A DNA stretch of 64,000 nt from an uncultured Coriobacteriaceae bacterium (GTDB lineage: Bacteria > Actinomycetota > Coriobacteriia > Coriobacteriales > Atopobiaceae): contig CACYWP010000007.1 of NCBI GenBank assembly GCA_902778135.1, positions 62,001 to 126,000 on the forward strand, given 5' to 3'. Of this stretch, positions 10,963 through 62,458 are shown piece by piece. Made by a program: the position numbers and the translations under genes. The notes below the pieces were generated by a model. It searched no databases, was not told the origin of the DNA, and was given only the letters and a program-made list of their open reading frames with translations. How positions within the stretch are numbered: the first letter of the stretch is position 1; each line of letters begins with the position of its first letter.

Positions 10963-11049
10963 GATGCGTCGCACGGGGAGGTCCGGGGGTTTCCCCTGGT
11001 GCCAATCGAATCCGAGCGTGGACAGGGGAACGCGTGAAAGGAGATTGAC

Positions 11050-16238: not shown

Positions 16239-16487
16239 ATGGATGAGGATCGCCAGGAAGTATTTGACGCTTTGTGCGAGCGCGCAAGCCAGCTCTTTGG
16301 CAAGGATGCCGACGAGTTCAGCCTGGATACCAAGTTCGAGGACCTGGGCATCAAGTCCGTGCAGGTGTCCCAGATCACCACGTACCTCGAGGACGAGCTG
16401 GACATCGAGGTTCCCTACATGAAGTTCCGTCGCTGCGCCACCTTCGGCGAGGCAGTCGACTTCGTTGCGGACCTGCTTGACGAGTAG
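16239..16487 (+). CDS. Acyl carrier protein (stand-alone)
   Basis: 82-residue acidic four-helix ACP. The phosphopantetheine-attachment Ser lies in FEDLGIKSVQVSQI (about residues 29-42), in the position of the DSL motif but with Lys before Ser. It carries an acyl chain as a thioester for an unknown partner. The start is set by GAGAGGAGAG. It is followed after 80 bp by the CocE-type hydrolase in the same direction. It is not next to fatty-acid synthesis genes, so a dedicated secondary role is likely. A second stand-alone ACP at 25043 has a different recognition helix. Confidence 0.88.
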   Translation: MDEDRQEVFDALCERASQLFGKDADEFSLDTKFEDLGIKSVQVSQITTYLEDELDIEVPYMKFRRCATFGEAVDFVADLLDE

Positions 16488-16567: not shown

Positions 16568-18484
16568 ATGCTCGAACCTCGCATTCCCGAGGATTGGATT
16601 CCCGTAACCGACAAGAAGCTCTCCGACCTGGTGCAGATGACCGGCGAGCTGGCAACCTTCGACGAGGATGAGGTCCCCATCTATTGGGACCCCGACACCG
16701 AGGGCTACATCTTCCTGCACAAGGAGGAGTTCGGTGGCGTCGAGATGATGGCCGCCTATCGCGTTGCGCGTCAGCCCAACGACAACCAGGCCGACGTCGA
16801 CCTGGCCAAGTCCGACGACCCCATGGCTCGCATGGGCCAGGGCTTCTGCCCGCCGTTCAACCCGCACACCTATGAGGTCGAGCCGGGCATCGTCTGCATG
16901 CAGGACCAGGAGGTCGTCATGCGTGACGGCACCAAGATCTATGCGGACATCTATCGCCCCGCTGGCGACGACGTCAAGTGCCCGACCATCGTCAGCTGGT
17001 CGTGGTTTGGCAAGCGTCCCGGTGACGGCATGAGCGAGTGGCAGATCATGGGCGTGCCGCCCCAGACGGTCTCCAAGTGCGCCAAGTTCGAGTCGCCCGA
17101 CCCGCTGTACTGGTGCCACTACGGCTATGCCGTCGCCAACGTCGACGTCCGCGGCGCCGGCCACTCCGAGGGCTCGGTCCACATGTTCACGCACCAGGAC
17201 CGCGAGGACGGCTACGACTTCGTCGAGTGGGTCGCCCAGCAGCCGTGGTCCAATGGCAAGGTCGGCATGGCCGGCAACTCCGGCGTCGCCATGCACCAGT
17301 GGGGCATCGCCTCGCTGCAGCCGCCTCACCTCGCCTGCATCGCACCGTGGGAGTCCACGACCGACCTGTACCGCGAGAGCTTCTTCGAGGGCGGCGTGCC
17401 GGCGCTGTCGTTCAACAAGTTCATCGCCGCCCAGGTGACGGGTCCCAACGGCGTGGACGACCAGGTCGCCATGGCCAAGATGTATCCCGACATGAACCCC
17501 TATTGGGAGGACAAGCGTCCCGACTTCAAGAAGGTCAAGCTGCCCGTCTACCAGACGGCCGGTTGGTCGCACTTCCATCTGCCGGGCTCCATCAACGCGT
17601 ACAACCGCTGCCGCTCGCACTTCAAGTGGCTGCGTGCCCACCGCGACTTCGAGTGGCCCGACACCTACAACCCCTACAACCTCGACGAGCTGCGCAAGTT
17701 CTACGACCGCTACCTCAAGGGCATCCACAACGGCTGGGAGATGATGCCGAAGGTGCGCATCGACGTCATGGACGGCTATGACGTGGACTACCAGGAGCAG
17801 CGTGCCGAGAAGGCCTGGCCCATCAAGCGCACCGAGTACAAGAAGCTCTATCTCGATGCCTCGCAGACGCTCGAGAGCGTCGAGACCGACCATGTCCAGA
17901 CCTTCGTGGCGGGCTTCGAGCCCACCGAGACCGAGGCTGTCGCCAAGTACGACCCCGTCGACGAGGAGGTCCGCTTCGAGTGGGTCCTGCCCGAGGACAC
18001 CGAGATTACCGGCCACATGACGCTGCACCTGTGGCTGTCCTGCGAGGGCTGGGACGACATGGACCTCTTCATCAACATCCAGAAGGCCGCCGCGGACGGC
18101 ACCTGGGTGCCGTGGCTGACCCTCGATGAGCCGCATCCCGGCGCATGGGGCAAGTGCCGCGTGTCGCGCCGCGAGCTCGACAGGAAGCTCAGCCGCGCCC
18201 ATCGTCCGGTGCTGAAGAACACCAGCAGCCAGAAGCTGTCCGAGGGCGAGGTCGTGCCGGTCGACATCGCCATCGTCCCGACGGCTCGCGTGTACCACAA
18301 GGGCGAGCGCTTCCGCATCCAGATCGCCGGTCGCTACATCCGCGAGGGTTGGTTCGAGCCGCTGTCCTGGGACGAGGAGGCCAAGGGTACCCACGTCATC
18401 CACACTGGTGGCCAGTACGACTCCTGGATCGAGATCCCGGTCATTCCGCCGCGCTATCAGGCGGGAGAGTACATCCACCGCTAG
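16568..18484 (+). CDS. CocE/NonD-type serine hydrolase (X-Pro dipeptidyl-peptidase S15-like)
   Basis: 638-residue alpha/beta hydrolase with the CocE/PepX layout. There is an N-terminal extension of about 110 residues, then a hydrolase domain starting VVMRDGTKIYADIYRP with the nucleophile Ser in AGNSGVAMHQWG. A cap region and AGWSHFHLPGSINAY follow, then a C-terminal beta-sandwich (PepX_C) from about residue 450. There is no signal peptide, so it is cytosolic. Known relatives cleave esters, amides or X-Pro peptides. The neighbour is an ACP gene 80 bp upstream, so an acyl-thioester or acyl-ester substrate is possible; this is inference. GAGAGGA precedes the ATG. Codon use is strongly biased, suggesting high expression. 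Confidence 0.85.
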   Translation: MLEPRIPEDWIPVTDKKLSDLVQMTGELATFDEDEVPIYWDPDTEGYIFLHKEEFGGVEMMAAYRVARQPNDNQADVDLAKSDDPMARMGQGFCPPFNPHTYEVEPGIVCMQDQEVVMRDGTKIYADIYRPAGDDVKCPTIVSWSWFGKRPGDGMSEWQIMGVPPQTVSKCAKFESPDPLYWCHYGYAVANVDVRGAGHSEGSVHMFTHQDREDGYDFVEWVAQQPWSNGKVGMAGNSGVAMHQWGIASLQPPHLACIAPWESTTDLYRESFFEGGVPALSFNKFIAAQVTGPNGVDDQVAMAKMYPDMNPYWEDKRPDFKKVKLPVYQTAGWSHFHLPGSINAYNRCRSHFKWLRAHRDFEWPDTYNPYNLDELRKFYDRYLKGIHNGWEMMPKVRIDVMDGYDVDYQEQRAEKAWPIKRTEYKKLYLDASQTLESVETDHVQTFVAGFEPTETEAVAKYDPVDEEVRFEWVLPEDTEITGHMTLHLWLSCEGWDDMDLFINIQKAAADGTWVPWLTLDEPHPGAWGKCRVSRRELDRKLSRAHRPVLKNTSSQKLSEGEVVPVDIAIVPTARVYHKGERFRIQIAGRYIREGWFEPLSWDEEAKGTHVIHTGGQYDSWIEIPVIPPRYQAGEYIHR

Positions 18485-20303: not shown

Positions 20304-21272
20304 ATGAAGGTTATGGCCATTTGCGCAGGTCGCAAGAACGGCAACGGCGAGATCCTGGCCAAGGAGGCCCTGAGTGCGGCCCAGGCGGCAGGCGCCGAGG
20401 TCGAGATGATCAACCTCTTTGACTACAACATCCTGCCCTGCACGGGCTGCGAGGGCTGCACCATGCAGATGGGCGAGGTCGCCATGGACCCGACCAAGCA
20501 GTACCGCGGCTGCGTCCTCAAGAACAAGGACGATGTGGACGCGCTCATCGCCGAGATGCACACCTGCGAGGGCGTCATCTTCTCCGTTCCCACCTATGAC
20601 CTGACACCCAGCTCGCTGTACACCCGCTTCGCGCAGCGCTTCCTGGCCTACGAGCTCTCCTTCCTGCTGGAGATCGGCGTCGTGGACCACAACCCGCACA
20701 CCGTTGCCGGCCTCATCGCAGTCGGCGGGTCCATGCACGACTGGCAGACGCTCGCGCTCGAGAGCCTGCAGGCGACCATGTTCACCATGTCGCTCACCGT
20801 CGTCGATCGCTTCATGAGCCAGCGCGTCGGCCGTCCCGGCAACGTCCTGCTGCATCAGGAGCAGCTCGACCGTGCCCACCAGATGGGCGAGAACATCGTC
20901 AAGGCCATCCAGACCCCGGTCGAGGAGCGCACCTGGCTGGGCGACCCGAACGATGGCGTGTGCCCCGTCTGCCACTCCAGCCTGGTCTATCCCGGCGACC
21001 CGCACTGGGACGGCATCGAGTTCCCGTACGAGTGCGCCGTGTGCGGCTGTGGCGGCGACCTGGGGACCAACCCCGAGACCGGCAAGCCCATGCTCGTCAT
21101 CGATCCCGAGAACGGGCGCATTCGTGACCGCAACAACGACAAGGCGCGCGCCGAGCACCTCAACGAGATCATCCAGACCCGCATCGGCTTCTTCCAGAAG
21201 GCCGACGAGGTCAAGCCGCTGATGGCCAAGTATCGTGACATGAAGTTCCCGACCTTCACCATCGAGCGCTAG
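20304..21272 (+). CDS. NAD(P)H-dependent FMN reductase-like flavoprotein with C-terminal zinc ribbon
   Basis: 322 residues. The N-terminal flavodoxin-like domain (1-about 200) starts MKVMAICAGRKNGNGE and contains the ILPCTGCEGCTMQ segment typical of NADPH-dependent FMN reductases of the iron-sulfur flavoprotein type, then SVPTYDLTPSSLY. A C-terminal segment holds CPVC and CAVCGCGG about 28 residues apart, a four-Cys ribbon likely to bind zinc or iron. A related protein at 56623 has the same design. GAGAGGAG precedes the ATG. Strong codon bias suggests high expression. The electron acceptor is unknown. Confidence 0.82.
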   Translation: MKVMAICAGRKNGNGEILAKEALSAAQAAGAEVEMINLFDYNILPCTGCEGCTMQMGEVAMDPTKQYRGCVLKNKDDVDALIAEMHTCEGVIFSVPTYDLTPSSLYTRFAQRFLAYELSFLLEIGVVDHNPHTVAGLIAVGGSMHDWQTLALESLQATMFTMSLTVVDRFMSQRVGRPGNVLLHQEQLDRAHQMGENIVKAIQTPVEERTWLGDPNDGVCPVCHSSLVYPGDPHWDGIEFPYECAVCGCGGDLGTNPETGKPMLVIDPENGRIRDRNNDKARAEHLNEIIQTRIGFFQKADEVKPLMAKYRDMKFPTFTIER

Positions 21273-21358: not shown

Positions 21359-22969
21359 CTATTCACTCAGATCACGGCGGTTCAGGTGAAGCCGTGGGGA
21401 GAAGAGTCCGGTATTCATGAGGATCCTGAAGCCCAATTGGAGCATGAACAGCTCCTCGCCACTGGTGAGGTCCATACCCAGTTGCTTCCGGATGCGCCCA
21501 AGCCGATAGAGCATCGTGTTCTTGTGCAGGTTGAGCAGCTCTGCCGCGCGCGCCGTCGAGCCGGCCACCTGCAGGTAGCAGAAGAGCGTCTCGAGCAGCT
21601 CGCTGTTGTGCTCCTCGTCGTATTCCAGCAGCGAGAGCAGTGCCGGATGGCAGAGCGACAGCAGGTCGGTGCGACGTCCGGTGATGTCGAGCATGTGCAT
21701 GTAGGCATAGTCGCAATACCGGTACAGCCCATCGTCGGCTATGGCATGCGATGCCATGTTGCCATAGCGAATGGCGGCACGGGCCTGCTCGTATGCCTTG
21801 CGTGTGTCGACGATGGACGTGAAGATGTTCGACACGCCGACCGTGAGGCCGTTCAGGGCGGCAACCTCGCGCAGCTTGCGCTCGGCAGAGGGCGAGAACC
21901 CAACGTCGGCATCACGGGAGAGCAATGCCACCAAGTGCTGGTGGTGGCGCGTGTACAGCGCATGGTGGAGCACCGGACGCAGCTGTCCCGCAACGTGTTC
22001 CGCCTGGACCTGCGACAGCCCCTCTCCCGGTGCGTGCAGGCACACCACATACTTCAGCTCCTTGGGATGGAAGTTGAGCGCCTTCATGCGACGGTTGGTG
22101 ACGGCGACGCTGGGGGAGCGGTCGTTCAGCAGGTTCTCGAGGAAGTACGATCCCATTTCGCCGCTCGTCGGACCCCACACCTCCGACTTCTGCATCTCCT
22201 GCGCCACAAAGCGGGAGAGACGCACGAATGCCTCGCGGTCGAGGTCGCCAAAGGGGTGCGCGCCCTCCATCATCATGACATGGGCGATGCAGACGCCGCG
22301 GACCATGACGGCAATCGTCATGGTGTTGCAGTCGAGGATCTCGTTGTGATGCTCGTATGGCCCCTTGTTGCGGGCTATCTCGGAGTCGATGTGGTTGTCG
22401 CGGATGTAGGCGACCGCCTCGTCGAGCACGGTCTCGTTGGCGATCTCCTTGCGCATGACCTGGGCGAGCTGCGAGTCGTCCTCGGGAAGGTCGCCCAAGT
22501 GGTATGCGACGTAGCGATAGGTCGGGTCGACCACGACGATGGGGTTGCCGAGTGCCGTCGCAGCCTCCTCGATGAGGTATTGCAGGCCCTGGTTGGAGAA
22601 GTGCGCGGCCAGGAGCCTGCGAATGATGCCCATCAGGCGCTGGTCCTCAAGGAAGGCGGACTGCAGGGCGTTGTAGCAGGCGAAGAGGTTCGCCCCCTGC
22701 TCCAGCCAGCAGAGGTTGACGTTGGGTTGGCCAGCCAGGGTGTCCGGGGCAGGCGCCCCGTCGACGATGACGCAGCTGAAGTGCCGGGAGCTGGGGATTT
22801 GCTTGGGCAGCAGCTCGCTGTCGGTGAAGTACAGCACGTCACCGCGCGGCAGCTGGCATGCCTCGTTCGTGAGGAACGAGAGGTTGTAGACGTCGCAGGC
22901 GGGGTCGGCTAGGGAGAGCGAGGCGACCGACTCCTCGGGTAGGCGTGATAGCAGTTCGTCAAGCCTCAT
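21359..22969 (-). CDS. PucR-family transcriptional regulator 1
   Basis: 536-residue cytosolic regulator. It has an N-terminal ligand-sensing region (about 1-120), a central GGDEF-like/CdaR-type segment (about 280-420), and a C-terminal PucR helix-turn-helix with STARAAELLNLHKNTMLYRL near residues 480-500. The start ATG (complement of 22967-22969) has GGAGG six bases upstream; a longer frame lacks such a site. It is divergent from the thiolase operon. The shared intergenic region holds the palindrome TTGTG-N6-CACAA 19-34 bases from its own start, so autoregulation and control of the operon are likely. A paralogue is at 54841. Confidence 0.9.
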   Translation of the reverse strand: MRLDELLSRLPEESVASLSLADPACDVYNLSFLTNEACQLPRGDVLYFTDSELLPKQIPSSRHFSCVIVDGAPAPDTLAGQPNVNLCWLEQGANLFACYNALQSAFLEDQRLMGIIRRLLAAHFSNQGLQYLIEEAATALGNPIVVVDPTYRYVAYHLGDLPEDDSQLAQVMRKEIANETVLDEAVAYIRDNHIDSEIARNKGPYEHHNEILDCNTMTIAVMVRGVCIAHVMMMEGAHPFGDLDREAFVRLSRFVAQEMQKSEVWGPTSGEMGSYFLENLLNDRSPSVAVTNRRMKALNFHPKELKYVVCLHAPGEGLSQVQAEHVAGQLRPVLHHALYTRHHQHLVALLSRDADVGFSPSAERKLREVAALNGLTVGVSNIFTSIVDTRKAYEQARAAIRYGNMASHAIADDGLYRYCDYAYMHMLDITGRRTDLLSLCHPALLSLLEYDEEHNSELLETLFCYLQVAGSTARAAELLNLHKNTMLYRLGRIRKQLGMDLTSGEELFMLQLGFRILMNTGLFSPRLHLNRRDLSE

Positions 22970-23118: not shown

Positions 23119-24402
23119 ATGAAGGTAGGCAAGTACGCACGCAGCGTGTCCATCGTGGGCGTCGGCTGCACCCCGTTCACCAACTTCGAGGATCATCCCG
23201 AGACCAAGGGCATGTCCGAGGGTGACGCCTTTGGCTACGCGGCCCTCGAGGCCATCACGGATGCCGGACTCGAGCCGCGCGACATCCAGTACTTCTATCA
23301 TGGCTCTGCCAACCCCTTCATGATCGGCGACTCCCTGACCCCCAACATGCAGGTTGCCGACTGGTTTGGCGTTCGCGGCATCGGCTCGGTCCATCACTCC
23401 GAGGCCTGCTGCACCGGTTACGTCGCCATGCAGGAGGCCGCCATGGCCATCGCCTCCGGCGAGTTTGACATCGTGCTCTCTGGCGCCGTCGACCTGGCCG
23501 CGAGCCTGCCCGTGGTTGGTGCCCCCGGTCACATGCGTCGCGACTTCCCGCTCGAGGAGATGCTCCCCTCGATCCCGATGGTCTACGATCGCGCCTACGG
23601 CCGTCCGCTTGACTCCGCCTTCGGCATCTCGTTCGACAACTGGATCAACGAGTATCGCTGGACCTATGGCCTCTCCGCAGACGACATCGACCGCGCCCTG
23701 AACGCCGTCGCCAAAAGCCTGCGTCGCGCCGCCGTGCTCAACCCGCGCGGCTTCTACGATGTCGACTTCGACCAGATCGCCGCTGCCAATGGCATGCCCG
23801 ACGCCGACGCCTTCCTGACCTCCATGATGAACCCCAAGGTCACCCAGTACCTGCGCGTCACCGGCTTCGAGACCAAGTGCGACGGCGCCGCCGCCATGGT
23901 CCTCATGCCCACCGAGATGGCCGTCGCCCGAGGCCTCGACCACAAGATCATCGACATCCTCGGCACCGGCTCCGCCGCCTACGAGGGCGCCACGCTCGCC
24001 AACGAGAAGACCGGCACCATCCGTGGCACCAAGCAGTGCTACGAGCTCACGGGCGTCTCCCCGGACGAGGTCGACCTCCTGTTCATCAATGACTTCTTCA
24101 TGGCCGGCGACATCGTGGTTCCCGAAGAGGTCGGCTACGTCCCGCGTGGCGAGGCCTGGCAGTACGCCATCGACGGCCGCTTCGCCTTTGACGGCGACAA
24201 GCCCATCAACACCCACGGCGGCCGCTGCAACTTTGGCCATGCCCACGGCGCCTCCGGCATCGCCGACATCGTCGAGGCCGTCTGGCAGATGCGCGGCGAG
24301 GCTGGCGCAACCCAGATGAAGAAGCTCCCGAAGACCACGATGTTCCGCGGCTTCGGCGGCGGCCAGAACATCCGCGTCCAGCTCATCCGCACCCACGAGT
24401 AG
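23119..24402 (+). CDS. Thiolase-like condensing enzyme (SCP-x/DUF35-associated type)
   Basis: 427-residue thiolase-fold enzyme expected to form or cleave a C-C bond on an acyl thioester. The nucleophile region reads HHSEACCTGYVAM with the likely catalytic Cys97, and the His motif is NTHGGRCNFGHAHGASG. The second catalytic Cys of ordinary thiolases (CxGGG) is replaced: the C-terminal motif reads RGFGGGQN. This resembles lipid-transfer-type thiolases that act with a DUF35 partner, which is the next gene (28-bp gap). A stand-alone ACP follows. GAAGGAG gives the start; an out-of-frame ATG lies 6 bases before it. Codon use is highly biased. Confidence 0.85.
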   Translation: MKVGKYARSVSIVGVGCTPFTNFEDHPETKGMSEGDAFGYAALEAITDAGLEPRDIQYFYHGSANPFMIGDSLTPNMQVADWFGVRGIGSVHHSEACCTGYVAMQEAAMAIASGEFDIVLSGAVDLAASLPVVGAPGHMRRDFPLEEMLPSIPMVYDRAYGRPLDSAFGISFDNWINEYRWTYGLSADDIDRALNAVAKSLRRAAVLNPRGFYDVDFDQIAAANGMPDADAFLTSMMNPKVTQYLRVTGFETKCDGAAAMVLMPTEMAVARGLDHKIIDILGTGSAAYEGATLANEKTGTIRGTKQCYELTGVSPDEVDLLFINDFFMAGDIVVPEEVGYVPRGEAWQYAIDGRFAFDGDKPINTHGGRCNFGHAHGASGIADIVEAVWQMRGEAGATQMKKLPKTTMFRGFGGGQNIRVQLIRTHE

Positions 24403-24429
24403 CGTATACGCGCAGAACAGGAGATAACC

Positions 24430-24897
24430 ATGCCTCTGCTCAAGGATATGGAGCCCATCGTCAAGAAGTTCTATGACGGTGTTGCCGAGGGTAAGTACTA
24501 CGGTCGCAAGTGCAAGGAGTGCGGCGCCATCGAGTTCCCGCCGCACCTGGGCTGCAACACCTGCGGCTACCACGAGACCGAGTGGGTCGAGCTCTCCGGC
24601 CACGGCACCCTAAAGAGCTTCGTGGTTCCCGGCATCCAGAACGACAAGCCCTACCTCAAGGCCGTCGCCCCGTATGGCTACGGCGCCGTCCAGCTCGACG
24701 AGGGCCCCATCTACAGCTTCGTCGTGTTCGCTGGCAAGAAGAAGATCGTCAAGGGCCTGCAGCAGCGTCTGGCCGACGGCGAGGTCATCGGCGTCCACGC
24801 CAAGCCCATCGACCGTGAGGTTCCCCTCAAGCCGGGCGAGCCCGAGATGGTTCACTTTGCCGAGCTCTGCTTCGAGCTCGACGAGGTTGCCGAGTAG
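24430..24897 (+). CDS. DUF35 OB-fold / zinc-ribbon partner protein
   Basis: 155 residues. An N-terminal rubredoxin-like zinc ribbon has CKECG (28-32) and CNTCG (about 42-46), and an OB-fold C-terminal domain follows (from about residue 55). DUF35 proteins form complexes with thiolase-type enzymes, as in archaeal HMG-CoA synthesis and the PhlACB acyltransferase, where they bridge subunits and bind CoA. Its position right after the thiolase gene supports the same role. A possible ribosome site (AGGAG) precedes the ATG. Confidence 0.92.
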   Translation: MPLLKDMEPIVKKFYDGVAEGKYYGRKCKECGAIEFPPHLGCNTCGYHETEWVELSGHGTLKSFVVPGIQNDKPYLKAVAPYGYGAVQLDEGPIYSFVVFAGKKKIVKGLQQRLADGEVIGVHAKPIDREVPLKPGEPEMVHFAELCFELDEVAE

Positions 24898-24907
24898 CTA
24901 ACCACCA

Positions 24908-24974
24908 TCGGGGACGGCTCCCTCCGTTCAATTGCGGACGAGAGACGCATTCGACCAAGGAGAACCGTCCCCGA
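24908..24974. repeat. Hairpin between the DUF35 and ACP genes carrying the dispersed GGGGACGG core
   Basis: TCGGGGACGG (24908-24917) is the exact complement of CCGTCCCCGA (24965-24974), and the stem continues as CTCC/GGAG past a two-base bulge. The right arm contains GGAGAACCGTCCC, the complement of GGGACGGTTCTCC seen in the repeats at 62517-62602 and 63975-64000. It lies inside the operon, so it may attenuate the ACP gene or affect mRNA stability. Confidence 0.6.
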
Positions 24975-25042
24975 CGGACGAAACCCGAGTATGCAAGCGT
25001 CACAGGTCACCAATAGGCAACACCACACGAAAGGAAACCACC

Positions 25043-25279
25043 ATGGATCAGGAGCTTCTTGAGCAGCTTGCCGAGTTCGCAAAGACCGCCTACGGCTATG
25101 ACGGCGAGATCACCGCTGACACCACCTTCGACGAGCTGGGCAAGGGTTCGATGAAGATGATCGCCCTCACCTCCACCATCGAGAACGAGCTCGACGCCGA
25201 GGTGACCATCCACGAGGTCATGAAGATGAAGACCTTCGGCGAGCTCGTCGAGCGCGTTGCCGAGGAGATGGAGGACTAG
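25043..25279 (+). CDS. Acyl carrier protein of the thiolase operon
   Basis: 78-residue acidic ACP. The phosphopantetheine Ser sits in FDELGKGSMKMIALTS (about 28-43), followed by the conserved helix II Glu-rich segment ENELDAEV. AAAGGAAAC lies before the ATG. It follows the DUF35 gene by 145 bp, which includes a hairpin, and ends at a strong terminator. An ACP beside a thiolase/DUF35 pair suggests that the condensing enzyme works on an ACP-bound acyl group instead of, or as well as, CoA esters. This is inference from context. Confidence 0.88.
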   Translation: MDQELLEQLAEFAKTAYGYDGEITADTTFDELGKGSMKMIALTSTIENELDAEVTIHEVMKMKTFGELVERVAEEMED

Positions 25280-25335: not shown

Positions 25336-25375
25336 AAGGAAGTCACTTCGTGCAGACGCACGAAGTGACTTCCTT
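25336..25375 (+). terminator. Strong terminator hairpin after the ACP gene
   Basis: A perfect 18-bp stem (25336-25353 with 25358-25375) closes over a four-base loop. It ends the thiolase-DUF35-ACP operon. Confidence 0.75.
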
Positions 25376-25391
25376 TGTGGCTCTTTTGATA

Positions 25392-33224: not shown

Positions 33225-33397
33225 CACGCGGGCAGCGGATTGTCATGGTCACGTTTCTCACCCTGCTGTCGTGTGGCGCCTTCGGGGCTGCTCTGAACAG
33301 TTGGGCGGGTATCTTCATGGGCGTGTGCATGGGCGTGGCGTTTGGCCTCTTTGGCTCGGGGGAGGACGATGATGGGCAGGCAGGGGAAGGGCGCTAG
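33221..33397 (+). CDS. Small membrane protein B (58 aa)
   Basis: The ATG overlaps the preceding TGA (ATGA), with GAGGGAAG upstream. 58 residues: MTRGQRIVMVTFLTLL..., two hydrophobic segments (about 7-24 and 29-45) and an acidic tail GEDDDGQAGEGR. Its 3' end overlaps the start of the esterase-like gene by 29 bases in another frame. Coupling to both neighbours supports it as a real gene. Function unknown. Confidence 0.6.
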   Translation: MTRGQRIVMVTFLTLLSCGAFGAALNSWAGIFMGVCMGVAFGLFGSGEDDDGQAGEGR

Positions 33398-34661: not shown

Positions 34662-34702
34662 AAAAGCGAGACGTGAGGCAAGAGAGAGGATGCGACGAGA
34701 CG

Positions 34703-41172: not shown

Positions 41173-41187
41173 CGGAGGGTGACCACG

Positions 41188-43929: not shown

Positions 43930-44937
43930 ATGGACCTTATGGAGCAGCTGCGCGACAAGGCGCGTGCCAACGTGCAGAAGGTGGCCTTCTTCGAGGCCGA
44001 TGACCCCAAGATGATGGAGGTCGTGGGCGAGCTCACCAAAGAGGGGCTGGCCGACTGCTACATCGTGGGTGACGGCGAGACCCTGCGCGCCACGGCCGAG
44101 CAGGTTGGTGTCGACCTCACGAACGTCAACGTCGTTGACCTGGCCGATGACGAGGCCAACGAGGCCTTCGCCGCTCGCTTCGAGGCTGCACCCGACTGCC
44201 CGTTCAAGTCCAAGGCCATCCGTCGTCGCGCCAAGCGTCCGATGGACCGCTGCCTCATGATGCAGCGCATAGACGATGTCGACATCACCTTTGGCGGCCT
44301 GTGCTGCTCCACCGGAGAGGTCATCATCGGTGGCCAGACCATCATCGGCCTTGCCGACGGCATCGAGACCATCTCCAGTCTGGGCATCTTCAACATCCCC
44401 GGCTGGGAGGGCAGCGAGGGCCATCTCATGGGCTTCGGCGACGCCGCCGTGTGCGTGAACCCCGACCCCGAGCAGCTTGCCTCCATCGCCATCACCTCCG
44501 CCGAGACGGTCCATGCCCTTATGGGCTGGGAGCCGCGTGTTGCCATGCTCAGCTACTCCACCGACGGCTCTGCCGAGTCCGAGATGGTCGACAAGGTCCG
44601 CGAGGCCGTGCGCATCGCCAACGAGCAGCGTCCCGACCTGGCCATCGACGGCGAGTTCCAGCTCGACTCCGCCATCGTCCCGGCCGTCGCTGCCAAGAAG
44701 GTCCGTCGTGAGAGCGCCGTCGCCGGCAAGGCCAACGTCCTCATCTGCCCCGACATCAACGTTGGCAACATCGGCGTCAAGCTCGTGCAGAACTTTGCCC
44801 ATGCCGATGCCTACGGCCCGATGCTCCAGGGCTTCAAGAAGATCGTCTGCGACTGCAGCCGCTCCGCGCCGGTCTCCGAGCTCGTCGGCAACGTCGTGAT
44901 GAGCTGCGTGCGCGCCCAGGCGCTGAAGGAGGCCTAA
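43930..44937 (+). CDS. ptb: Phosphate butyryl/acetyl-transferase family protein
   Basis: 335 residues of the PF01515 family, exchanging CoA of an acyl-CoA for phosphate. The shape fits phosphate butyryltransferase: single domain, no extra N-terminal BioD-like part as in long Pta, and followed immediately by a butyrate kinase. Conserved segments include RPMDRCLMMQ, GEVIIGGQTIIG, LSYSTDGSAESEMVDKV (about 212-228), DGEFQLDSAIVP and ANVLICPDINVGNIGVKLVQ. GAGAGGAG lies before the ATG. Codon use is highly biased, suggesting strong expression. The chain length of the acyl group is inferred from the kinase. Confidence 0.87.
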   Translation: MDLMEQLRDKARANVQKVAFFEADDPKMMEVVGELTKEGLADCYIVGDGETLRATAEQVGVDLTNVNVVDLADDEANEAFAARFEAAPDCPFKSKAIRRRAKRPMDRCLMMQRIDDVDITFGGLCCSTGEVIIGGQTIIGLADGIETISSLGIFNIPGWEGSEGHLMGFGDAAVCVNPDPEQLASIAITSAETVHALMGWEPRVAMLSYSTDGSAESEMVDKVREAVRIANEQRPDLAIDGEFQLDSAIVPAVAAKKVRRESAVAGKANVLICPDINVGNIGVKLVQNFAHADAYGPMLQGFKKIVCDCSRSAPVSELVGNVVMSCVRAQALKEA

Positions 44938-44941
44938 GAAC

Positions 44942-46051
44942 ATGGCAGACAAGACCTACCGCATCCTGGTCATCAACCCCGGTTCCACCTCCACCAAGGT
45001 CGGCGTCTTTGACGGCGAGACCGAGGTCTTCACCAAGAACGTCGCCCATGAGGCCGAGAAGCTTGCCGAGTTCAAGAGCGTGTCCGACCAGATGCCCTAT
45101 CGTCGCGACCTCATCCTCGAGGCGCTCGCCGAGAACGACGTCGACCTCTCCACCATCGACGCCTTCGTCGGCCGCGGCGGTGGCCTGCTGGCCCTCGAGG
45201 GTGGCACCTATACGGTCAACGACGTCATCCTCGACCATGCGTACCGCGGCGCCAACGGCGTGCAGCACCCCGCCCAGCTGGGCAGCCAGCTCGCCAACGC
45301 CTTCGCGTCGCAGGTCGGCAAGCCTGCCTTCGTGGTCAACCCGCCCGACACAGACGAGCTCTGCGACCTTGCCCGCATGACCGGCATCAAGGGCGTCTAC
45401 CGCAACGTCCACCTGCACGCGCTCAACCTCAAGGAGACCGCCATCCGTCACGCCCACGGCATGGGCAGGCGCTATGACGAGTGCAACTTCATCGTCTGCC
45501 ACATCGGCGGCGGCATCTCCATCAGCGCCCACAGGGCTGGCAAGATGATCGACGGCTACGACATCGTGGGCGGCGAGGGCATGATGGCCCCCACGCGCTG
45601 CGGCGCCGTTCCCGTGGCCGAGGTCCTCAACTACCTCGAGGCCGGGCACTCCATCAAGGAGGTCCGCGGCATGTGCATGAAGACCGGCGGATTCGTCGAC
45701 CTGCTGGGCACCTCCGACGCCATCGAGGTGTGCGACCGCGCCGCAGCCGGCGACAAGGCCGCAGCACGCGCCTGGGACGCCATGCTCTACCAGATCAACA
45801 AGTACATCGGCTCGATGGCCACCGTGCTTGGCGGCAAGGTCGACGGCATCCTGCTCGGCGGCGGCATGGTCCACAACAAGGGCCTCGTCAAGAGCATCGA
45901 GGACAACTGCGGCTGGATCGCGCCCGTCTCCGCCTATCCCGGCGAGTTCGAGCTCGAGGCCATGGCCGCCGGCGCCATCCGCGTCCTCGACGGCGAGGAG
46001 GAGCCCAAGACCTACACGGGCGTTCCCGTGTTCACCGGTTTCGACGATTAG
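44942..46051 (+). CDS. buk: Butyrate kinase 1
   Basis: 369-residue ASKHA-fold kinase converting butyryl-phosphate (or branched or related acyl phosphate) plus ADP to the acid plus ATP. The family start is ILVINPGSTSTKVGVF (7-22). The substrate and phosphate segments are HIGGGISISAHRAGKMID (about 182-199), GEGMMAPTRCGAVP, and the ATP site MLYQINKYIGSMATVLGGKVDGILLGGG. It follows ptb by four bases, with GGAGG in the ptb end as ribosome site. Together they conserve the thioester energy as ATP. Confidence 0.92.
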   Translation: MADKTYRILVINPGSTSTKVGVFDGETEVFTKNVAHEAEKLAEFKSVSDQMPYRRDLILEALAENDVDLSTIDAFVGRGGGLLALEGGTYTVNDVILDHAYRGANGVQHPAQLGSQLANAFASQVGKPAFVVNPPDTDELCDLARMTGIKGVYRNVHLHALNLKETAIRHAHGMGRRYDECNFIVCHIGGGISISAHRAGKMIDGYDIVGGEGMMAPTRCGAVPVAEVLNYLEAGHSIKEVRGMCMKTGGFVDLLGTSDAIEVCDRAAAGDKAAARAWDAMLYQINKYIGSMATVLGGKVDGILLGGGMVHNKGLVKSIEDNCGWIAPVSAYPGEFELEAMAAGAIRVLDGEEEPKTYTGVPVFTGFDD

Positions 46052-53507: not shown

Positions 53508-54632
53508 CTACGCCTCGACGTCGGCGAAGGCCCCGGGCATGTCGAAGCCGTCCCACGAGGGCTCGCCGGTATAGGTCATGACCTCCTCGGTGCCCTCGAG
53601 CGCACGGATGGCGCCGGAGGCCGAGCCCTCCATCTCGAAGTCGCCACCATAGGCGACGACGGGGGCGATCCAGCCCACACGCTCCTCGATGTAGGCGACG
53701 AAGCCCTTGTCGTTGGAGACGCCGCCGGTCAGGATGATGCCATCCACCTTGCCCTTGAGCGTCGCGGCGAAGGCTCCGATGGCCTTGGCGGTCTGATAGG
53801 CCATTGCCTCGTAGACGACCTTTGCCCACCCGTCCCCCGCGGCGATGCGCTCGTTGATGGCGATCGCGTCATCGGTGCCCACCAGGCCCAGCAGGCCACC
53901 GGTCTTGCCGATGACGTTCATGATCTCGCGCTTGTCGTGGTCGCCGGAGAAGGCCAGTGCCACGACGGGCTTCAGCGGCACGTCGCCGGAGCGGTTGGGG
54001 GCAAAGGGGCCGGAGCCCTCGAGCACGTCGTTGGTGTCCACCATGCGACCGTGGCGATGCGCCGCGACCGAAAGTCCGCCACCCACGTGCGCCACGATGA
54101 CGTTGACCTCGTCGTACGCCTTGCCGAGCGTGGTGGCGTAGCGGATCGCGCATTCCTTCTGGTTGAGGCAGTGCACGTGGCTCTTGCGGTAGACGCCTGG
54201 GTAGCCGGTGATGCGTGCGACGTCGTCCAGCTCGTCCGTGTCGGGCTGGTTGACGGCAAAGGCGGGCTTGCCGGTCTTCTGGGCGAACGAGTGCAGGATG
54301 GGTGCGCCCAGGATCGCGGGGTGGTTCATGCCGCAGTTCAGCACGTGGTCGCAGACCGTCTCGTCAATGGCGAAGATGCCACCGACGGTGGGGCCCATGC
54401 CGCCGCAGTAGCCCGAGAAGGCGTCGATGGACTCCAGCGTCACGTTGGCCGCCGCCAGCTCGCGCTCGATGGTGGCTATGCGGTACTCCAGCTGGTCGGC
54501 AGCCAGGTCGAAAGAGGCGAGCTCGGCCGGGTCATGGCGGACGTTGGCCTTGAACACGGGCTGGTTGCCCTCGAACACGGCCACCTTGGTGGAGGTCGAA
54601 CCAGGGGAGAGCGTGAGGATGCGGTAGGCCAT
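53508..54632 (-). CDS. Butyrate kinase 2
   Basis: 374 residues, paralogous to the kinase at 44942. It has ILTLSPGSTSTKVAVF, GHVNHPAI-type substrate segment NCGMNHPAILGAP, VAHVGGGLSVAAHRHGRMVD and TLKGKVDGIILTGGVSND. It is in a different neighbourhood, with an MFS carrier and no phosphotransacylase, so it may act in another direction or on another acid (salvage of a taken-up acid to acyl phosphate). AGGAG precedes the ATG (complement of 54630-54632). Divergent from pucR2. Confidence 0.92.
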   Translation of the reverse strand: MAYRILTLSPGSTSTKVAVFEGNQPVFKANVRHDPAELASFDLAADQLEYRIATIERELAAANVTLESIDAFSGYCGGMGPTVGGIFAIDETVCDHVLNCGMNHPAILGAPILHSFAQKTGKPAFAVNQPDTDELDDVARITGYPGVYRKSHVHCLNQKECAIRYATTLGKAYDEVNVIVAHVGGGLSVAAHRHGRMVDTNDVLEGSGPFAPNRSGDVPLKPVVALAFSGDHDKREIMNVIGKTGGLLGLVGTDDAIAINERIAAGDGWAKVVYEAMAYQTAKAIGAFAATLKGKVDGIILTGGVSNDKGFVAYIEERVGWIAPVVAYGGDFEMEGSASGAIRALEGTEEVMTYTGEPSWDGFDMPGAFADVEA

Positions 54633-54760
54633 GTCGGCTCCTATCTTCGTTTGGCGGTCGCGGGACGTGGTCGCATGAGGCGACACCTCTAGCCTACGGA
54701 TACTCGTTCGTTGCTCACATGGTCACTGCCCCAAATTGACAAGGGCCCAGTCTTTGAACT

Positions 54761-54776
54761 TTGTGCTGGAGTACAA
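54761..54776. promoter_or_regulatory. Near copy of the TTGTG-N6-CACAA palindrome before pucR2
   Basis: TTGTGCTGGAGTACAA differs from the pattern at one position (TACAA). It lies in the divergent gap between butyrate kinase 2 and pucR2. Confidence 0.35.
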
Positions 54777-54840
54777 CGCATTTATCACTCGCGGAAATGA
54801 GAATTACATCAGGTTGTTTTGTCGTGCGAATGGGTGGCTC

Positions 54841-56445
54841 ATGAAGCTTCGGACAGTGCTGGGAGAGCTTTCGGTGACGGACTTTGTGACGGGGTCGGAT
54901 GTGGCCCTCGACAGGGACGTCATCGTATATCCCGGTAAGGAGCCTGTATCACCCATCCCCGAGATGGTGGTGCTGGCTCCCGAAGGTGCGGGTGTCGGTA
55001 TCGAGGGCTTCGCTGGCATAACGTTGGCCTACCGGGGGTCCGGGCCCCTTGACGAGGCGAACCGACCGCCTGCGCGCACGGTGTATGTCGTCTCGGAGCT
55101 CGACTACGACGGGCTCATGCAGGAGTTTGTGCGACTGCCCGAGCTGCACATCCGCCTCGACCTGCAGCGCAAGCGGATCTTTACGGCGTTCCAGAGCTCC
55201 TATGATATCCAGCGGTATGCGGACCGGGTGCACGAGATCCTGGACAACCCGCTCATAATCGTCAACTCCGACCGTCGCCTGCTGGCCAGCGCCGGCTCCT
55301 TTCCGGAGAACCGTGCCGACGTGATCGAGGAGATCGACCAGGGCTACGTGTCCGAGGAGGTGCACGGCGAGCTGGAGCGCGAGGGCATCCTCGACGACGT
55401 GCGCCATGCCGGTCACTCCATCATCTCCGAGAACAGCCGCTTCGGGCAGCGCTGGGTGACCTCCATCATCACCTATCACCACATGGAGATGGGTCGCTTC
55501 GACATGCTCGAGCAGGATCGGGTGATAGGCATCGCCGACCTCGAGCTGGTGGACTTCGCGGGCTCGCTGGCGGGTGTGATCATCGACCGCCTGGGCGTTG
55601 CCGGGGAGCGCGCCGGTTCGGGCTCAACGGTGCTGGACGACCTGTTGGGCGCGACCTTTGCCAACGAGAAGACCATGCGTGCCCAGCTGGCCCTCTCGTC
55701 CATGCCGCTCGACGAGACCTATGTCCTGGTCGAGCTCGTGGGCGACCGCGAGATACCACGCGCGCATCTGCAGCGCATCGCCACCCGCGTGACCCACGCC
55801 TTCCGCAACAGCCTGTGGACCATCCGCGACGGCAACCTGGTGGTGATGATCGCATTGGGCGTGCGCACCTGCGTGGGGTGGGATGCCTACGAGCTCGCCG
55901 AGCGCATGCTTGGCCAGCGCAAGGAGTTCGTCACGACCTGCGAGGTCAATGGCCTGCGTGCCTATGTGAGCGAGCCCTTCGAGCAGATCGACTTCGCTCC
56001 CGACCGCTACCAGCAGATATGCGACCTCCTGGCCGCCCATGTCCCCGGCCAAGGCAACATGGTCCTCTTCTGGCAGCACCGCTACCTGGTGCTGGCAAGC
56101 ATGGCGCACACCTTTGGGCAGATGGACATGATGCTGGACAAGCGCGTGATAGCCATGAGCCTGTACGACCTCGACCACCATACCTCCTACCTGGAGACCG
56201 CGCGCATGACCGTTGAGTTCCCCGGCAGCCCGGCCGAGGCGGCAAAGGCGCTGAACGTCCATCGCAACACCTACTTCTATCGCGTGAACAAGATCTCCGA
56301 GCTGTTCTTCCTCGACCTGCGCTGCGGCGAGGACCGCCTGGCCGTCGCGTTCTTCACGCGCTTCCTGGAGGGGATGGACAACCACCTGCTCTTCGATGCC
56401 GACCACATGCCCATCAAATGGCAGCGCGCCGTGGGCCGCGCCTGA
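54841..56445 (+). CDS. PucR-family transcriptional regulator 2
   Basis: 534 residues. The N-terminal sensing region is similar in plan to PucR1 (VLGELSVTDFVTGSDVALDR...). The middle has DNPLIIVNSDRRLLASAGSF, and the C-terminal PucR HTH is GSPAEAAKALNVHRNTYFYR (about 460-480). The start ATG 54841 is chosen by similarity of the N-terminus to PucR1; its ribosome site is weak (GGGTGG). It is divergent from butyrate kinase 2, whose promoter it probably controls. Confidence 0.88.
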   Translation: MKLRTVLGELSVTDFVTGSDVALDRDVIVYPGKEPVSPIPEMVVLAPEGAGVGIEGFAGITLAYRGSGPLDEANRPPARTVYVVSELDYDGLMQEFVRLPELHIRLDLQRKRIFTAFQSSYDIQRYADRVHEILDNPLIIVNSDRRLLASAGSFPENRADVIEEIDQGYVSEEVHGELEREGILDDVRHAGHSIISENSRFGQRWVTSIITYHHMEMGRFDMLEQDRVIGIADLELVDFAGSLAGVIIDRLGVAGERAGSGSTVLDDLLGATFANEKTMRAQLALSSMPLDETYVLVELVGDREIPRAHLQRIATRVTHAFRNSLWTIRDGNLVVMIALGVRTCVGWDAYELAERMLGQRKEFVTTCEVNGLRAYVSEPFEQIDFAPDRYQQICDLLAAHVPGQGNMVLFWQHRYLVLASMAHTFGQMDMMLDKRVIAMSLYDLDHHTSYLETARMTVEFPGSPAEAAKALNVHRNTYFYRVNKISELFFLDLRCGEDRLAVAFFTRFLEGMDNHLLFDADHMPIKWQRAVGRA

Positions 56446-56622: not shown

Positions 56623-57702
56623 ATGACCAAGATTCTCGGCGTGTCGTTTGGTACCAGGAACGGCAACAACGACTCCATCTGCAAGGAGGTGCTGAAGGGC
56701 GCCCAGGAGGCTGGCTGCGAGGTGGAGTTCATCCGCGCCCAGGATCTCGACATCAAGCACTGCACGGGCTGCATCGCCTGCGTCAAGGCCCTCATGAGCG
56801 GTCGCGGGAACATGTGCATCCACAAGGACGACTTCGACTGGCTGGCCTACAAGATGTTCACCTCCGACGGCATCGTCATGGTCGACCCGATCTTCGAGAC
56901 GGGTGCGTCCGGCCTGTTCCACACCATCATGGACCGCTTCGGGCCCCGCATGGACACCGGAAACAACTTCATCGGCATGCAGATCGCCAAGGACATCATC
57001 GAGCATGGCGGCAAGGGCACCGTCCCGCCCGAGTGCGTCTTCCACACCGGCATCCCCGTGTCCTACATCGGCATCGGCGGCTCCGACTGGGGCACCCACA
57101 TCCAGTCCGACCACCAGATCCAGTCCATGACGCCCGCATGGAAGGTCATTGACAACGAGTGGATCGCCTGGTCCAAGACCGCGCTGATGAAGGACGAGGT
57201 CGTGGCGCGCGCCCACCAGATCGGCATCAACCTCGCCGAGGCCGCCAAGGATCCCGAGCATGCCGAGTACAAGGGCGAGAAGGGCGTCTGCCCGCACTGC
57301 AACTGCAACGACTTCTACCTGTACCCCGGCACCAACCGCGCCGTGTGTGCCGTGTGCGGCCTGCAGGGCAAGATCGTCATCGACGCCAAGGGCGCCGTCA
57401 CGGTCGAGTACGCCGAGCACGACCTGTGCGACGAGGACGGCAACGTCATCTACGACGAGGACGGCGCCCCGGCCTTCCCCGGTATCTACGACGAGCAGGG
57501 TCGCGAGCGCGCCCACGACACCATGGGCGGCAAGCAGATCCATGGCGAGGACATCGGCAAGAACGAGGGCATCCTCGCCGAGATGCAGAAGACCCCCGAG
57601 TACAAGGCCCGCGTCGCCGCGTACAAGGAGTTCCTGTCGCCCGTCAAGCCCGACGAGGCCGACCGCTACGCCAGGTTCCAGGACCTGGGCGCCCGCCAAT
57701 AA
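56623..57702 (+). CDS. NAD(P)H-dependent FMN reductase-like flavoprotein with zinc ribbon, paralogue 2
   Basis: 359 residues, same plan as the protein at 20304. A flavodoxin-fold domain starts ILGVSFGTRNGNNDSI and carries IKHCTGCIACVKAL with the Cys pair of iron-sulfur flavoprotein relatives. A four-Cys zinc-ribbon follows at about 222-247 (CPHC, then CAVCG). A longer acidic C-terminal tail is added. GAGAGGGGAAAG lies before the ATG. Codon bias is strong. It is followed, after a terminator-like hairpin, by the FAD-dependent reductase. Confidence 0.82.
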   Translation: MTKILGVSFGTRNGNNDSICKEVLKGAQEAGCEVEFIRAQDLDIKHCTGCIACVKALMSGRGNMCIHKDDFDWLAYKMFTSDGIVMVDPIFETGASGLFHTIMDRFGPRMDTGNNFIGMQIAKDIIEHGGKGTVPPECVFHTGIPVSYIGIGGSDWGTHIQSDHQIQSMTPAWKVIDNEWIAWSKTALMKDEVVARAHQIGINLAEAAKDPEHAEYKGEKGVCPHCNCNDFYLYPGTNRAVCAVCGLQGKIVIDAKGAVTVEYAEHDLCDEDGNVIYDEDGAPAFPGIYDEQGRERAHDTMGGKQIHGEDIGKNEGILAEMQKTPEYKARVAAYKEFLSPVKPDEADRYARFQDLGARQ

Positions 57703-57712
57703 GCACAACCCG

Positions 57713-57742: not shown

Positions 57743-57787
57743 TACGCACTTTGTGTGGCAGCATCGGTTGCATACACATAGATTGGC

Positions 57788-57885: not shown

Positions 57886-59430
57886 ATGGCAAAGCAGCTT
57901 GAGGCCGATGTCGTCGTCGTTGCCGCTGGCCTGTCGGGACTGGCAGCCGCAATCTCCGCCGCCGAGAACGGCGCGAGCGTCATCTGCCTGGAGAAGGCGT
58001 CCAACACCGGTGGCGCTGCCAACATGGGCATGGGTCCCTGCGCGGCCGGCTCGCCCGTCCAGAAGATGAGCGGCATCACCCTCACCCCTGGCGAGCTGTT
58101 CCGTCGCCACATGTTCTACACCCATTACCAGGTCGACGCCAAGCTGGTAAAGGCCTACTACGACAAGTCCGGTGACACCATCCAGTGGCTGATGGACATG
58201 GGCGTCGTCTTCAACTCCGTGCGTCCCGCCTTCCGCGCCGGCGAGCGCACCAAGGCCTATGCCGATGGCGAGTACACCTGGCACGTCGTCCAGCCCGAGG
58301 ACGGCTCCGAGCCCGGCCCGCGCGCCGCGACCACGATGACCAAGCGCATGACCGAGAAGGCCCAGGACCTGGGCGTCGAGTTCATGCTCGAGACCCCCGG
58401 CACCGACCTGATCACCGACGAGGACGGCGCCATCTGCGGCGTCAAGGCCGTCGACAAGTCCGGCGAGGAGATCGAGATCTCCTGCAAGGCCGCCATCGTC
58501 GCCACCGGCGGCTTCGGCCACAACACCGAGATGATCAAGGACCTCATCGGCCTCGAGTGGGGCAAGAACCTCTTCTCCTTCGCCATCCCCGGCATGGACG
58601 GCGACGGCTTCAACATGTGCCACAAGGTTGGCGCGGGCCACACCCCCGTCACCATGGAGATGATGTACCAGCTGCCCGACAACATGAACCACTTCTACGT
58701 CGAGGGCGCCTTCCGCCAGCCCTGCTACTGGTGCGACCGTCTGGGCGAGCGCTTCATGCCCGAGGACGAGGTCTTCAACACCACCTTCGTCGGCAATGCC
58801 ATCAACCACCTGCCCGGCAAGGTCGGCTATGCCATCTTCGACGCCAACATGCTCAAGCGCTGGAAGAAGTACGGTCCCGACATCGTCTCCCACGTGCATC
58901 CGCATGACCTCTACGAGGGCTTCGAGGCCCAGTGGAACGCCGATCTCGAGACCTACAAGGACGCTGACGGCAACCCCTACATCGCCCAGGCCGACACCCT
59001 CGAGGAGCTCGCCGAGAAGCTCGGCATCAACGTCGATGGCTTCGTCGCCGCGGTCGAGGAGTACAACGAGATGTGCGCCGAGGGCTATGACGCCCTGTTC
59101 GAGAAGGACCGCCAGTTCATGATCCCTCTGGAGGAGGGTCCCTTCTACGGCTGCAAGCAGTTCATGGGCGCCTACGGCACCCTGGGCGGCGTGCTGGTCA
59201 ACCACAAGCTCGAGGTCATGACCGACGACTACGAGACCATCCCCGGCCTGTACTGCGTCGGCACCGACGCCTGCACCATCTATGGCGACTCCTACAACTT
59301 CTGCATCCCCGGCAACACCATGGGCTTCTGCCTGAACTCCGGCCGCATCGCCGGCGAGAACGCCGCGATGCTTGCCTTCGAGGGCGGGGACGACGAGGAC
59401 TGGGACGACGGTGACGGCGATTGGGACTAG
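57886..59430 (+). CDS. FAD-dependent reductase (fumarate-reductase/FAD_binding_2 family)
   Basis: 514 residues, no signal peptide and no FMN-binding domain, so a cytosolic single-flavin enzyme. The FAD site is at ADVVVVAAGLSGLAAAISAA (8-27), with EKASNTGGAANMGMG (about 36-50) and PGMDGDGFNMCHKVGAGH in the middle and GDSYNFCIPGNTMGFCLN at the end. Family members reduce fumarate, urocanate, cinnamates or steroids. The acidic tail GGDDEDWDDGDGDWD is unusual. The substrate is unknown. The downstream genes supply a likely NAD(P)H-to-reductase electron path. Codon bias indicates high expression. Confidence 0.88.
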   Translation: MAKQLEADVVVVAAGLSGLAAAISAAENGASVICLEKASNTGGAANMGMGPCAAGSPVQKMSGITLTPGELFRRHMFYTHYQVDAKLVKAYYDKSGDTIQWLMDMGVVFNSVRPAFRAGERTKAYADGEYTWHVVQPEDGSEPGPRAATTMTKRMTEKAQDLGVEFMLETPGTDLITDEDGAICGVKAVDKSGEEIEISCKAAIVATGGFGHNTEMIKDLIGLEWGKNLFSFAIPGMDGDGFNMCHKVGAGHTPVTMEMMYQLPDNMNHFYVEGAFRQPCYWCDRLGERFMPEDEVFNTTFVGNAINHLPGKVGYAIFDANMLKRWKKYGPDIVSHVHPHDLYEGFEAQWNADLETYKDADGNPYIAQADTLEELAEKLGINVDGFVAAVEEYNEMCAEGYDALFEKDRQFMIPLEEGPFYGCKQFMGAYGTLGGVLVNHKLEVMTDDYETIPGLYCVGTDACTIYGDSYNFCIPGNTMGFCLNSGRIAGENAAMLAFEGGDDEDWDDGDGDWD

Positions 59431-61729: not shown

Positions 61730-62458
61730 ATGGACTACGCAATCGACAAGGCTGGCACCACGACCGTCCAGGCATTGCTTGACGCAGCGGGCGCCTCTGC
61801 CGAGGACCTCAAGGCGGTCTGGCTCTCCTATCCGACGGCATCCTTCGTGCCGGCTGCCCAGTTTGCCAGCGAGCTCGAGGTCGCAGAGGGTACCGAGACC
61901 CTGCGCACCTATGGCGAGGGCGACTGCATGGCCGATGCCCTGTACAAGGTGATCGGCGAGCTGCGCATGGCCACCGAGTGCACCTGCACCTTCGGTCACG
62001 AGGGCGGCTACCAGCTGCACACCATCATGGGCGACGCCTGCACCAAGAAGGGCAGGCCGACCGACATCGCCCTGATGCGCGACCTTGCCCCCGTGATGGA
62101 GAAGCAGGCCATCTGCGGAGAGGGCAGGGCCATCGGCCGCGTGACGACCCAGGCGCTCGACCTCTTCGGCGCCGAGATCGAGCCGCACTTCGCCAAGCGC
62201 CAGTGCCCCACCGGTGGCTGCGAGGCCTTCAAGACCTATCACGTCCTGGTGAGCAAGTGCACCGGCTGCGGCAAGTGCCTCAAGGCCTGCGATGATGGCG
62301 CCATTCTCGGCAAGGCCAAGTTCGTGCACGTCGTCAACCAGAAGAAGTGCACCCAGTGCGGACAGTGCCTGGAGGCCTGCCCCGAAGGCGCCATCGTGCG
62401 CGCCGGCGCCAAGAAGCCCAAGACGCCGCCGAAGCCCATTCCGGTGCGTCGCAAGTAG
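61730..62458 (+). CDS. NuoF C-terminal-like / ferredoxin protein
   Basis: 242 residues. The middle (about 75-165) resembles the Fe-S-binding C-terminal region of NuoF/HydB (ECTCTFGHEGG, then DIALMRDLAPVMEKQAICGEG and KRQCPTGGCEAF), but the FMN/NADH domain is absent and the first Cys cluster is partly degenerate. Two 4Fe-4S ferredoxin motifs end the protein: CTGCGKCLKAC and CTQCGQCLEAC. It is translated right after the large Fe-S flavoprotein and may be its electron-transfer partner. AGGGGGAACC is the weak ribosome site. Confidence 0.83.
   Translation: MDYAIDKAGTTTVQALLDAAGASAEDLKAVWLSYPTASFVPAAQFASELEVAEGTETLRTYGEGDCMADALYKVIGELRMATECTCTFGHEGGYQLHTIMGDACTKKGRPTDIALMRDLAPVMEKQAICGEGRAIGRVTTQALDLFGAEIEPHFAKRQCPTGGCEAFKTYHVLVSKCTGCGKCLKACDDGAILGKAKFVHVVNQKKCTQCGQCLEACPEGAIVRAGAKKPKTPPKPIPVRRK

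Follow-up and report, generated by a model that had tools for sequence, protein, structure and literature searches.

A thiolase-fold acyl transferase, its DUF35 partner and a small acyl carrier protein (ACP), encoded side by side in an uncultured Coriobacteriaceae bacterium, appear on balance to be the core of an ACP-dependent module for C-C bond cleavage and energy conservation in an anaerobic catabolic pathway. The window (the whole stretch of 64,000 nucleotides that was analysed, to which positions refer unless another locus is named) belongs to a 3.17 Mb genome to which Atopobiaceae are closest, including several from the rumen or from sheep or deer gut. An initial sequence-only reading had described the three genes as a mini-operon with its own PucR regulator and a strong terminator, and the genes and both attributes stand:

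20304..21272, + strand: FMN-reductase/iron-sulphur-flavoprotein-like enzyme, a conserved neighbour of the thiolase
21362..22969, - strand: PucR-type regulator (PF13556), divergent from the thiolase and near it in most coriobacterial loci
23119..24402, + strand: thiolase-fold acyl transferase (THL), 427 aa; PF22691 Thiolase_C_1 (1.1e-26) and Thiolase_N
24430..24897, + strand: DUF35 partner of THL (zinc ribbon and OB fold); OB_ChsH2_C (1.5e-7)
25043..25279, + strand: ACP1, the dedicated acyl carrier protein, 78 aa; PF00550 (4.5e-9); Ser36 in GKGSMKM
25338..25377, + strand: terminator-like sequence after ACP1, an 18-bp perfect palindrome with a T-rich tail

All three are genuine, intact genes with domain matches, and the true start of ACP1 is the ATG at 25043. 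Cys spacing in the DUF35 zinc ribbon is canonical (C-x2-C-x10-C-x2-C), and ACP1 is a free carrier with a phosphopantetheine Ser, as had been claimed. The palindrome was read from the sequence by eye, and a computed scan scores only part of it. Assignment of ACP1 to the citrate lyase/malonate decarboxylase carriers (CitD/MdcC family) was considered and rejected, as only PF00550 matched. The mini-operon frame itself is too small: the conserved unit also includes a phosphotransacetylase (PTA) homologue, an acyl kinase and, often, a phosphopantetheinyl transferase (PPTase).

The carrier protein as a partner of thiolase and DUF35

The ACP is almost certainly a functional partner of THL-DUF35. Across the loci compared, 47 fetched by protein pattern and 35 regions around matches in other genomes, DUF35 adjoins THL in 44 of 45 coriobacterial copies and in all 39 others. 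An ACP occurs on the same strand within 2.7 kb of THL in 41 of the 45 coriobacterial copies and the remaining four are cut by a contig end, so that every locus whose contig reaches that far (41/41) has one. Outside the Coriobacteriia, in Lachnospiraceae, Anaerolineales and another actinobacterium, 35 of 39 loci have an intact ACP. No ACP was found in three of these 39 (L096, L106 and L118), and L097 retains a remnant (10790-11410) from which the Ser-bearing segment is deleted. The orthologous operons thus do the opposite of consistently lacking the ACP gene. L097 is also without a nearby PTA and kinase, an apparent loss of the ACP branch.

The position of the ACP varies. It is encoded after DUF35, before THL, after PTA, or as a fusion to the DUF35 C-terminus, and in the thiolase tree the fused, upstream and after-PTA arrangements each form one clade. 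Fusions of DUF35 to one or two tandem ACP domains (8 genes in 7 loci) are a classic form of evidence for functional linkage. Conserved synteny and these four arrangements, fusions included, establish the ACP as a genuine third member, as the sequence-only reading had proposed. In the predicted model of a fused homologue (L112), both domains are recognised by fold, with a low-confidence linker that has no bearing on domain contact. The carrier domain of this homologue, rather than ACP1 itself, matches the four-helix ACP fold of 1x3o (TMt 0.88, rmsd 1.1). The phosphopantetheine-attachment Ser at the start of helix 2 is kept in 75 of 75 aligned ACP sequences, a set that includes the second window ACP and the AcpP of the genome. 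Only two of the 75 have the Asp found before this Ser in standard ACPs, a pattern that fits dedicated PPTases. One locus (L117:8083-11900) has a tandem pair of thiolase-DUF35 pairs, followed by an ACP with the standard DSL motif.

Phosphotransacylase, kinases and reductases

In relatives, the genes occur in the order THL-DUF35-ACP-PTA-kinase, and this arrangement recurs in Lachnospiraceae, Coriobacteriia and Anaerolineales. A single tight operon in L103 reads FMN reductase, FAD reductase, NuoG/GltD-like, NuoF-like, THL, DUF35, ACP, PTA and kinase. In a distant actinobacterium with a thiolase only 30% identical (L121), THL, DUF35, ACP, kinase, PTA and an AcpS-type PPTase follow in one run with gaps of at most 60 bp, the kinase being acetate-kinase-like by reading of its sequence. 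L105 also has an AcpS-type PPTase inside the operon, and Sfp-type PPTases are encoded near several loci; the window genome itself has an Sfp-type PPTase. No PTA was found within 3 kb in several ACP-bearing loci (L047, L093-L095 and L101). The window has these parts scattered across 46 kb, with the PTA-kinase pair 19 kb from the ACP; ACP2, the PTA-kinase pair and the paralogous locus at 53.5-62.5 kb had been overlooked in the sequence-only reading:

16239..16487, + strand: ACP2, a second acyl carrier protein; Ser in LGIKSVQV
16568..18484, + strand: CocE/NonD-type alpha/beta hydrolase directly after ACP2; TIGR00976 (2.1e-72)
43930..44937, + strand: PTA homologue without two CoA-binding Arg; adjoins THL-DUF35-ACP in relatives
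44942..46051, + strand: butyrate-kinase-type acyl kinase, 4 bp after PTA
53508..54686, - strand: second butyrate-kinase-type acyl kinase
54841..56445, + strand: second PucR-type regulator (paralogue)
56623..57702, + strand: second FMN-reductase-like enzyme (paralogue)
57886..59430, + strand: FAD reductase of the fumarate reductase/vinylphenol reductase type; shares an operon with THL-DUF35-ACP-PTA-kinase in L103
59572..61716, + strand: NuoG/GltD-like electron-input protein (NAD(P)H to flavin)
61733..62458, + strand: NuoF-C-terminal/ferredoxin-like electron carrier; start inferred

The paralogous locus at 53508-62458 (kinase, PucR, FMN-reductase-like protein, FAD enzyme, NuoG/GltD- and NuoF-like carriers) has no thiolase. 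The ACP2-CocE pair is kept in many relatives, and an ACP would be an unusual target for a hydrolase or transacylase. Directly after the PTA-kinase pair is a SpoVAC/SpoVAEB-family membrane protein (46081-46869), and a similar-looking protein occurs near the thiolase in Collinsella (L046). Two similar tandem pairs (33369-35728 and 39883-42210), apparently a duplication, each comprise an erythromycin-esterase-like protein and a YdcF-like membrane protein, named by eye.

The strong codon bias that had been taken as a sign of high expression is present at the THL locus (effective codon number 28.9) and extends well beyond it. Gene calling gave 42 window genes that encode 200 aa or more; in 11 of these the effective codon number is below 30, and the next gene is at 32.3. 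All nine THL-linked enzyme genes, defined as those that co-occur with THL elsewhere (THL, PTA, the two kinases, the two FMN reductases, CocE, the FAD reductase and the NuoG/GltD-like protein), are among these 11. The chance that nine random genes all fall in the top 11 is 55/445,891,810, or ~1e-7, with genes treated as independent. The shared bias points to a highly expressed pathway; bias alone is no proof of shared function. A GFO/IDH/MocA oxidoreductase (14866-15909) and a CobW-type GTPase (62734-63876) share the extreme bias and may belong to the pathway.

On wider sampling the clade is rare. It occurs in 20 of 397 genomes in the Lachnospiraceae family search and in 2 of 396 genomes of the window's phylum, its own included. 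It was found in the centre genome only among 398 phylum-wide genomes around the Lachnospiraceae one, and likewise among 298 of the Anaerolineales class.

The carrier proteins of the window genome are an AcpP encoded next to plsX and rnc, ACP1, ACP2 and a single NRPS-like carrier domain. FabF was not found in the genome. The separate AcpP at plsX and the absence of FabF make fatty acid elongation an unlikely role for ACP1 and ACP2, and the candidate identity of ACP1 as the fatty-acid ACP was rejected on these grounds. The genome is nearly complete and encodes AcpP and PlsX; without FabF, the organism may depend on outside fatty acids.

Proposed acyl transfer, phosphorolysis and direction of flow

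In the reading that we favour, flavin reductases would prepare a substrate with a C-C bond of the 1,3-dicarbonyl-like or aryl-ketone type, and THL-DUF35 would cleave this bond by retro-Claisen chemistry (reverse acyl transfer). Cys97 of THL would take the acyl group as a thioester and hand it to the phosphopantetheine arm of ACP1, not to CoA. A PTA adapted to acyl-ACP would then convert the thioester by phosphorolysis to an acyl phosphate, from which a butyrate/acetate-type kinase would generate ATP and a short carboxylate. From the parts and their linkage, the DUF35-ACP fusions, the catalytic residues, the loss of arginines from PTA and the shared codon bias, we infer acyl transfer to the ACP, acyl-ACP as the PTA substrate and flow in the catabolic direction.

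The catabolic direction is probable, judging from gene content around the loci. In a Pfam scan of 99 neighbouring proteins, MFS proteins were commonest (12), followed by FAD_binding_2 reductases (7), xylose-isomerase-like proteins (7), GFO/IDH (6), FMN_red (4), binding-protein ABC permease components (4), [FeFe] hydrogenases (3), carboxylesterases (2) and acyl-ACP thioesterases (2). Import, hydrolysis, reduction, cleavage and a kinase together give the unit a catabolic look. PTA and the kinase are reversible, so the direction of flow is not fixed by sequence, and the unit could in principle run biosynthetically. The kinase and PTA would then consume ATP in loading ACP1 with a short acyl group from a free acid, and the thiolase-DUF35 pair would C-acylate an acceptor in the manner of PhlC or MucABC, with the reductases tailoring, and an MFS pump exporting, a specialised metabolite. 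The closest solved DUF35-thiolase relatives do include the C-acyltransferases PhlABC and MucABC, biosynthetic systems typically have an ACP and PPTase of their own, the unit would offer a CoA-free way to acyl-ACP in a genome that lacks FabF, and MFS genes are the commonest neighbours. Nonetheless, we consider biosynthesis unlikely, as the ABC importers, carboxylesterases, sugar-isomerase-like proteins, GFO/IDH proteins and [FeFe] hydrogenases beside several loci look catabolic, the very high codon bias of reductases and kinases is a better fit to a main energy pathway, and there is no conserved acceptor-making gene set. The [FeFe] hydrogenase-type genes occur beside thiolase/DUF35-ACP fusion loci (L112, L113, L115 and L116), and that of L112 passes the model for group A6 NADH-dependent enzymes. 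Around the thiolase-DUF35 pairs of L096 (without ACP) and L097 (with the ACP remnant) are sugar-isomerase-like, VOC and GFO/IDH genes, a set that we take to be reminiscent of C-glycoside-cleaving clusters.

The identity of the acyl carrier bears on a second alternative. Arg87 and Arg133 of PTA (M. thermophila Pta numbering) hold the CoA phosphates. Each of the 28 operon-type PTAs in the comparison, that of L121 among them, has a replacement or deletion at both positions, and the catalytic Ser309-Arg310 is kept throughout (PF01515). In the reference set, which comprised the second PTA of the genome and five solved Ptas, the genome's second PTA keeps both arginines and the solved Ptas keep Arg133. 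The arginines are not essential for catalysis in known enzymes (PMC6461089). Among the hints that PTA acts on acyl-ACP, which we regard as quite likely, the loss of these residues is the strongest. The alternative is an ordinary CoA-dependent 3-ketoacyl thiolase whose acyl-CoA product PTA and kinase would use, the ACP having only a structural or regulatory role. Thiolase, PTA and butyrate kinase are the usual end of anaerobic degradation, as for phloroglucinol (PMC10470551), and the ACP is lost in some loci. The invariance of the ACP Ser (75/75), the operon-encoded PPTases, the missing CoA-phosphate arginines and the DUF35-ACP fusions, those with tandem ACPs included, all argue against this, and we rate it somewhat below the biosynthetic alternative.

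The active site of THL favours acyl transfer. The AlphaFold2 model (pLDDT 90) matches SCP2 thiolases, archaeal thiolases, PhlC, benzoylsuccinyl-CoA thiolase and MucABC. The nucleophile Cys97 (EACCTG) corresponds in alignments to the Cys that accepts the acyl group in archaeal and SCP2 thiolases, and the equivalent Cys of PhlC takes the acyl group directly from an aromatic ketone (PMC6392133). Further active-site residues are N324 (NDFF) and H374 (GHA). Cys97 and His374 are invariant in 36 aligned homologues, as is D325, and N324, F326 and H61, the last a candidate counterpart of PhlC His56, are nearly so. The second catalytic Cys, in the CxGGG motif of type II thiolases, is absent, as noted earlier: the motif is RGFGGG with Gly at the Cys position, and R410, G411 and G413 are invariant or nearly so. 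The label of lipid-transfer-type thiolase that had been attached to this loss does not follow from it, since the best-matching archaeal and SCP2-type thiolases also differ there. The sequence-only reading had further proposed a condensing or retro-aldol unit acting on an ACP-tethered acyl chain; acyl chemistry on the ACP remains likely, but the retro-aldol part falls away. A retro-aldolase akin to Ltp2-ChsH2 or Sal-Shy, acting on beta-hydroxyacyl-ACP, would share the thiolase-fold plus DUF35 architecture and the missing second Cys, but is highly improbable and was rejected on its motifs, given that the Tyr-bearing YDHF/YDCY of the Ltp2 and Sal aldolases (PMC12329534) is NDFF here, that the acyl-accepting Cys97 never varies and that coupling to PTA and kinase requires an acyl thioester product.

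ACP-dependent cleavage would, in its full form, amount to a previously undescribed kind of substrate-level phosphorylation. A dedicated ACP, not CoA, would carry the thioester of C-C cleavage from THL-DUF35 to an ACP-specific phosphotransacylase and kinase, with up to four paralogous copies for different substrates in several gut bacteria. We put this forward tentatively, as a proposition with slightly less than even prospects. If true, catabolism would here have an acyl-carrier economy distinct from the CoA pool, served by a dedicated ACP and PPTase and by a PTA that has lost the CoA-phosphate arginines. It also provides a concrete hypothesis for thiolase-DUF35 genes now annotated as "acetyl-CoA acetyltransferase". 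The unit is present in gut and rumen Lachnospiraceae and Coriobacteriia, in loci with reductases, esterases and sugar-handling genes, and so may underlie the degradation of dietary compounds for which no C-C cleavage enzyme is known. The same mix of genes suggests plant polyphenol-type compounds or plant phenolic conjugates as substrates, a guess with rather poor odds, as the evidence is circumstantial and differs among loci.

Comparison with known systems

No description of the thiolase-DUF35-ACP-PTA-kinase set was found in the open-access literature searched. The phloroglucinol pathway of C. scatologenes, considered as a precedent, includes a thiolase and butyrate kinase, but the text searched (PMC10470551) mentions no carrier protein and its C-C lyase comes from a different family. 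The C-acyltransferases PhlACB and MucABC similarly pair a thiolase-fold subunit bearing an acyl-accepting Cys with a DUF35 subunit, and PhlC needs no CoA to add acyl groups to aromatic ketones or to remove them (PMC6392133). They have a third, HMG-CoA-synthase-like subunit. Here, neither the genes next to THL in the window nor the neighbour families listed include such an HMGS/KASIII-like protein; an ACP, separate or fused to DUF35, is present, and PTA and kinase are linked. The archaeal HMG-CoA complex has the same thiolase and DUF35 folds and pairing and is among the best sequence and fold matches, but it uses CoA and an HMGCS subunit in the anabolic mevalonate route and has no ACP. The steroid aldolases Ltp2-ChsH2 and Sal-Shy combine an SCP2-thiolase-like protein with a DUF35 domain, but have a Tyr-based retro-aldol active site and no ACP, PTA or kinase. 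Benzoylsuccinyl-CoA thiolase (BbsAB), related by family matches, is a thiolase-DUF35 enzyme of C-C cleavage in anaerobic catabolism, but acts on a CoA substrate in an aromatic hydrocarbon pathway, without an ACP.

Separate elements of the proposed scheme have parallels elsewhere. Citrate lyase and malonate decarboxylase employ a small ACP in anaerobic catabolism, but these carriers belong to other ACP families with a special prosthetic group, whereas ACP1 is a plain PF00550 protein. PlsX converts acyl-ACP and phosphate to acyl phosphate for phospholipid precursors, not ATP, and glycine reductase GrdC/GrdD joins a thiolase fold to a phosphotransacylase that makes acetyl phosphate; both are of different families and pathways. 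Textbook accounts of fermentative ATP formation from thioesters usually centre on CoA. The Pta-AckA and Ptb-Buk systems of substrate-level phosphorylation share the PTA_PTB and butyrate/acetate kinase families and the catalytic Ser-Arg with the unit described here, in which, by contrast, PTA is without the CoA-phosphate arginines and is embedded with an ACP and a PPTase.
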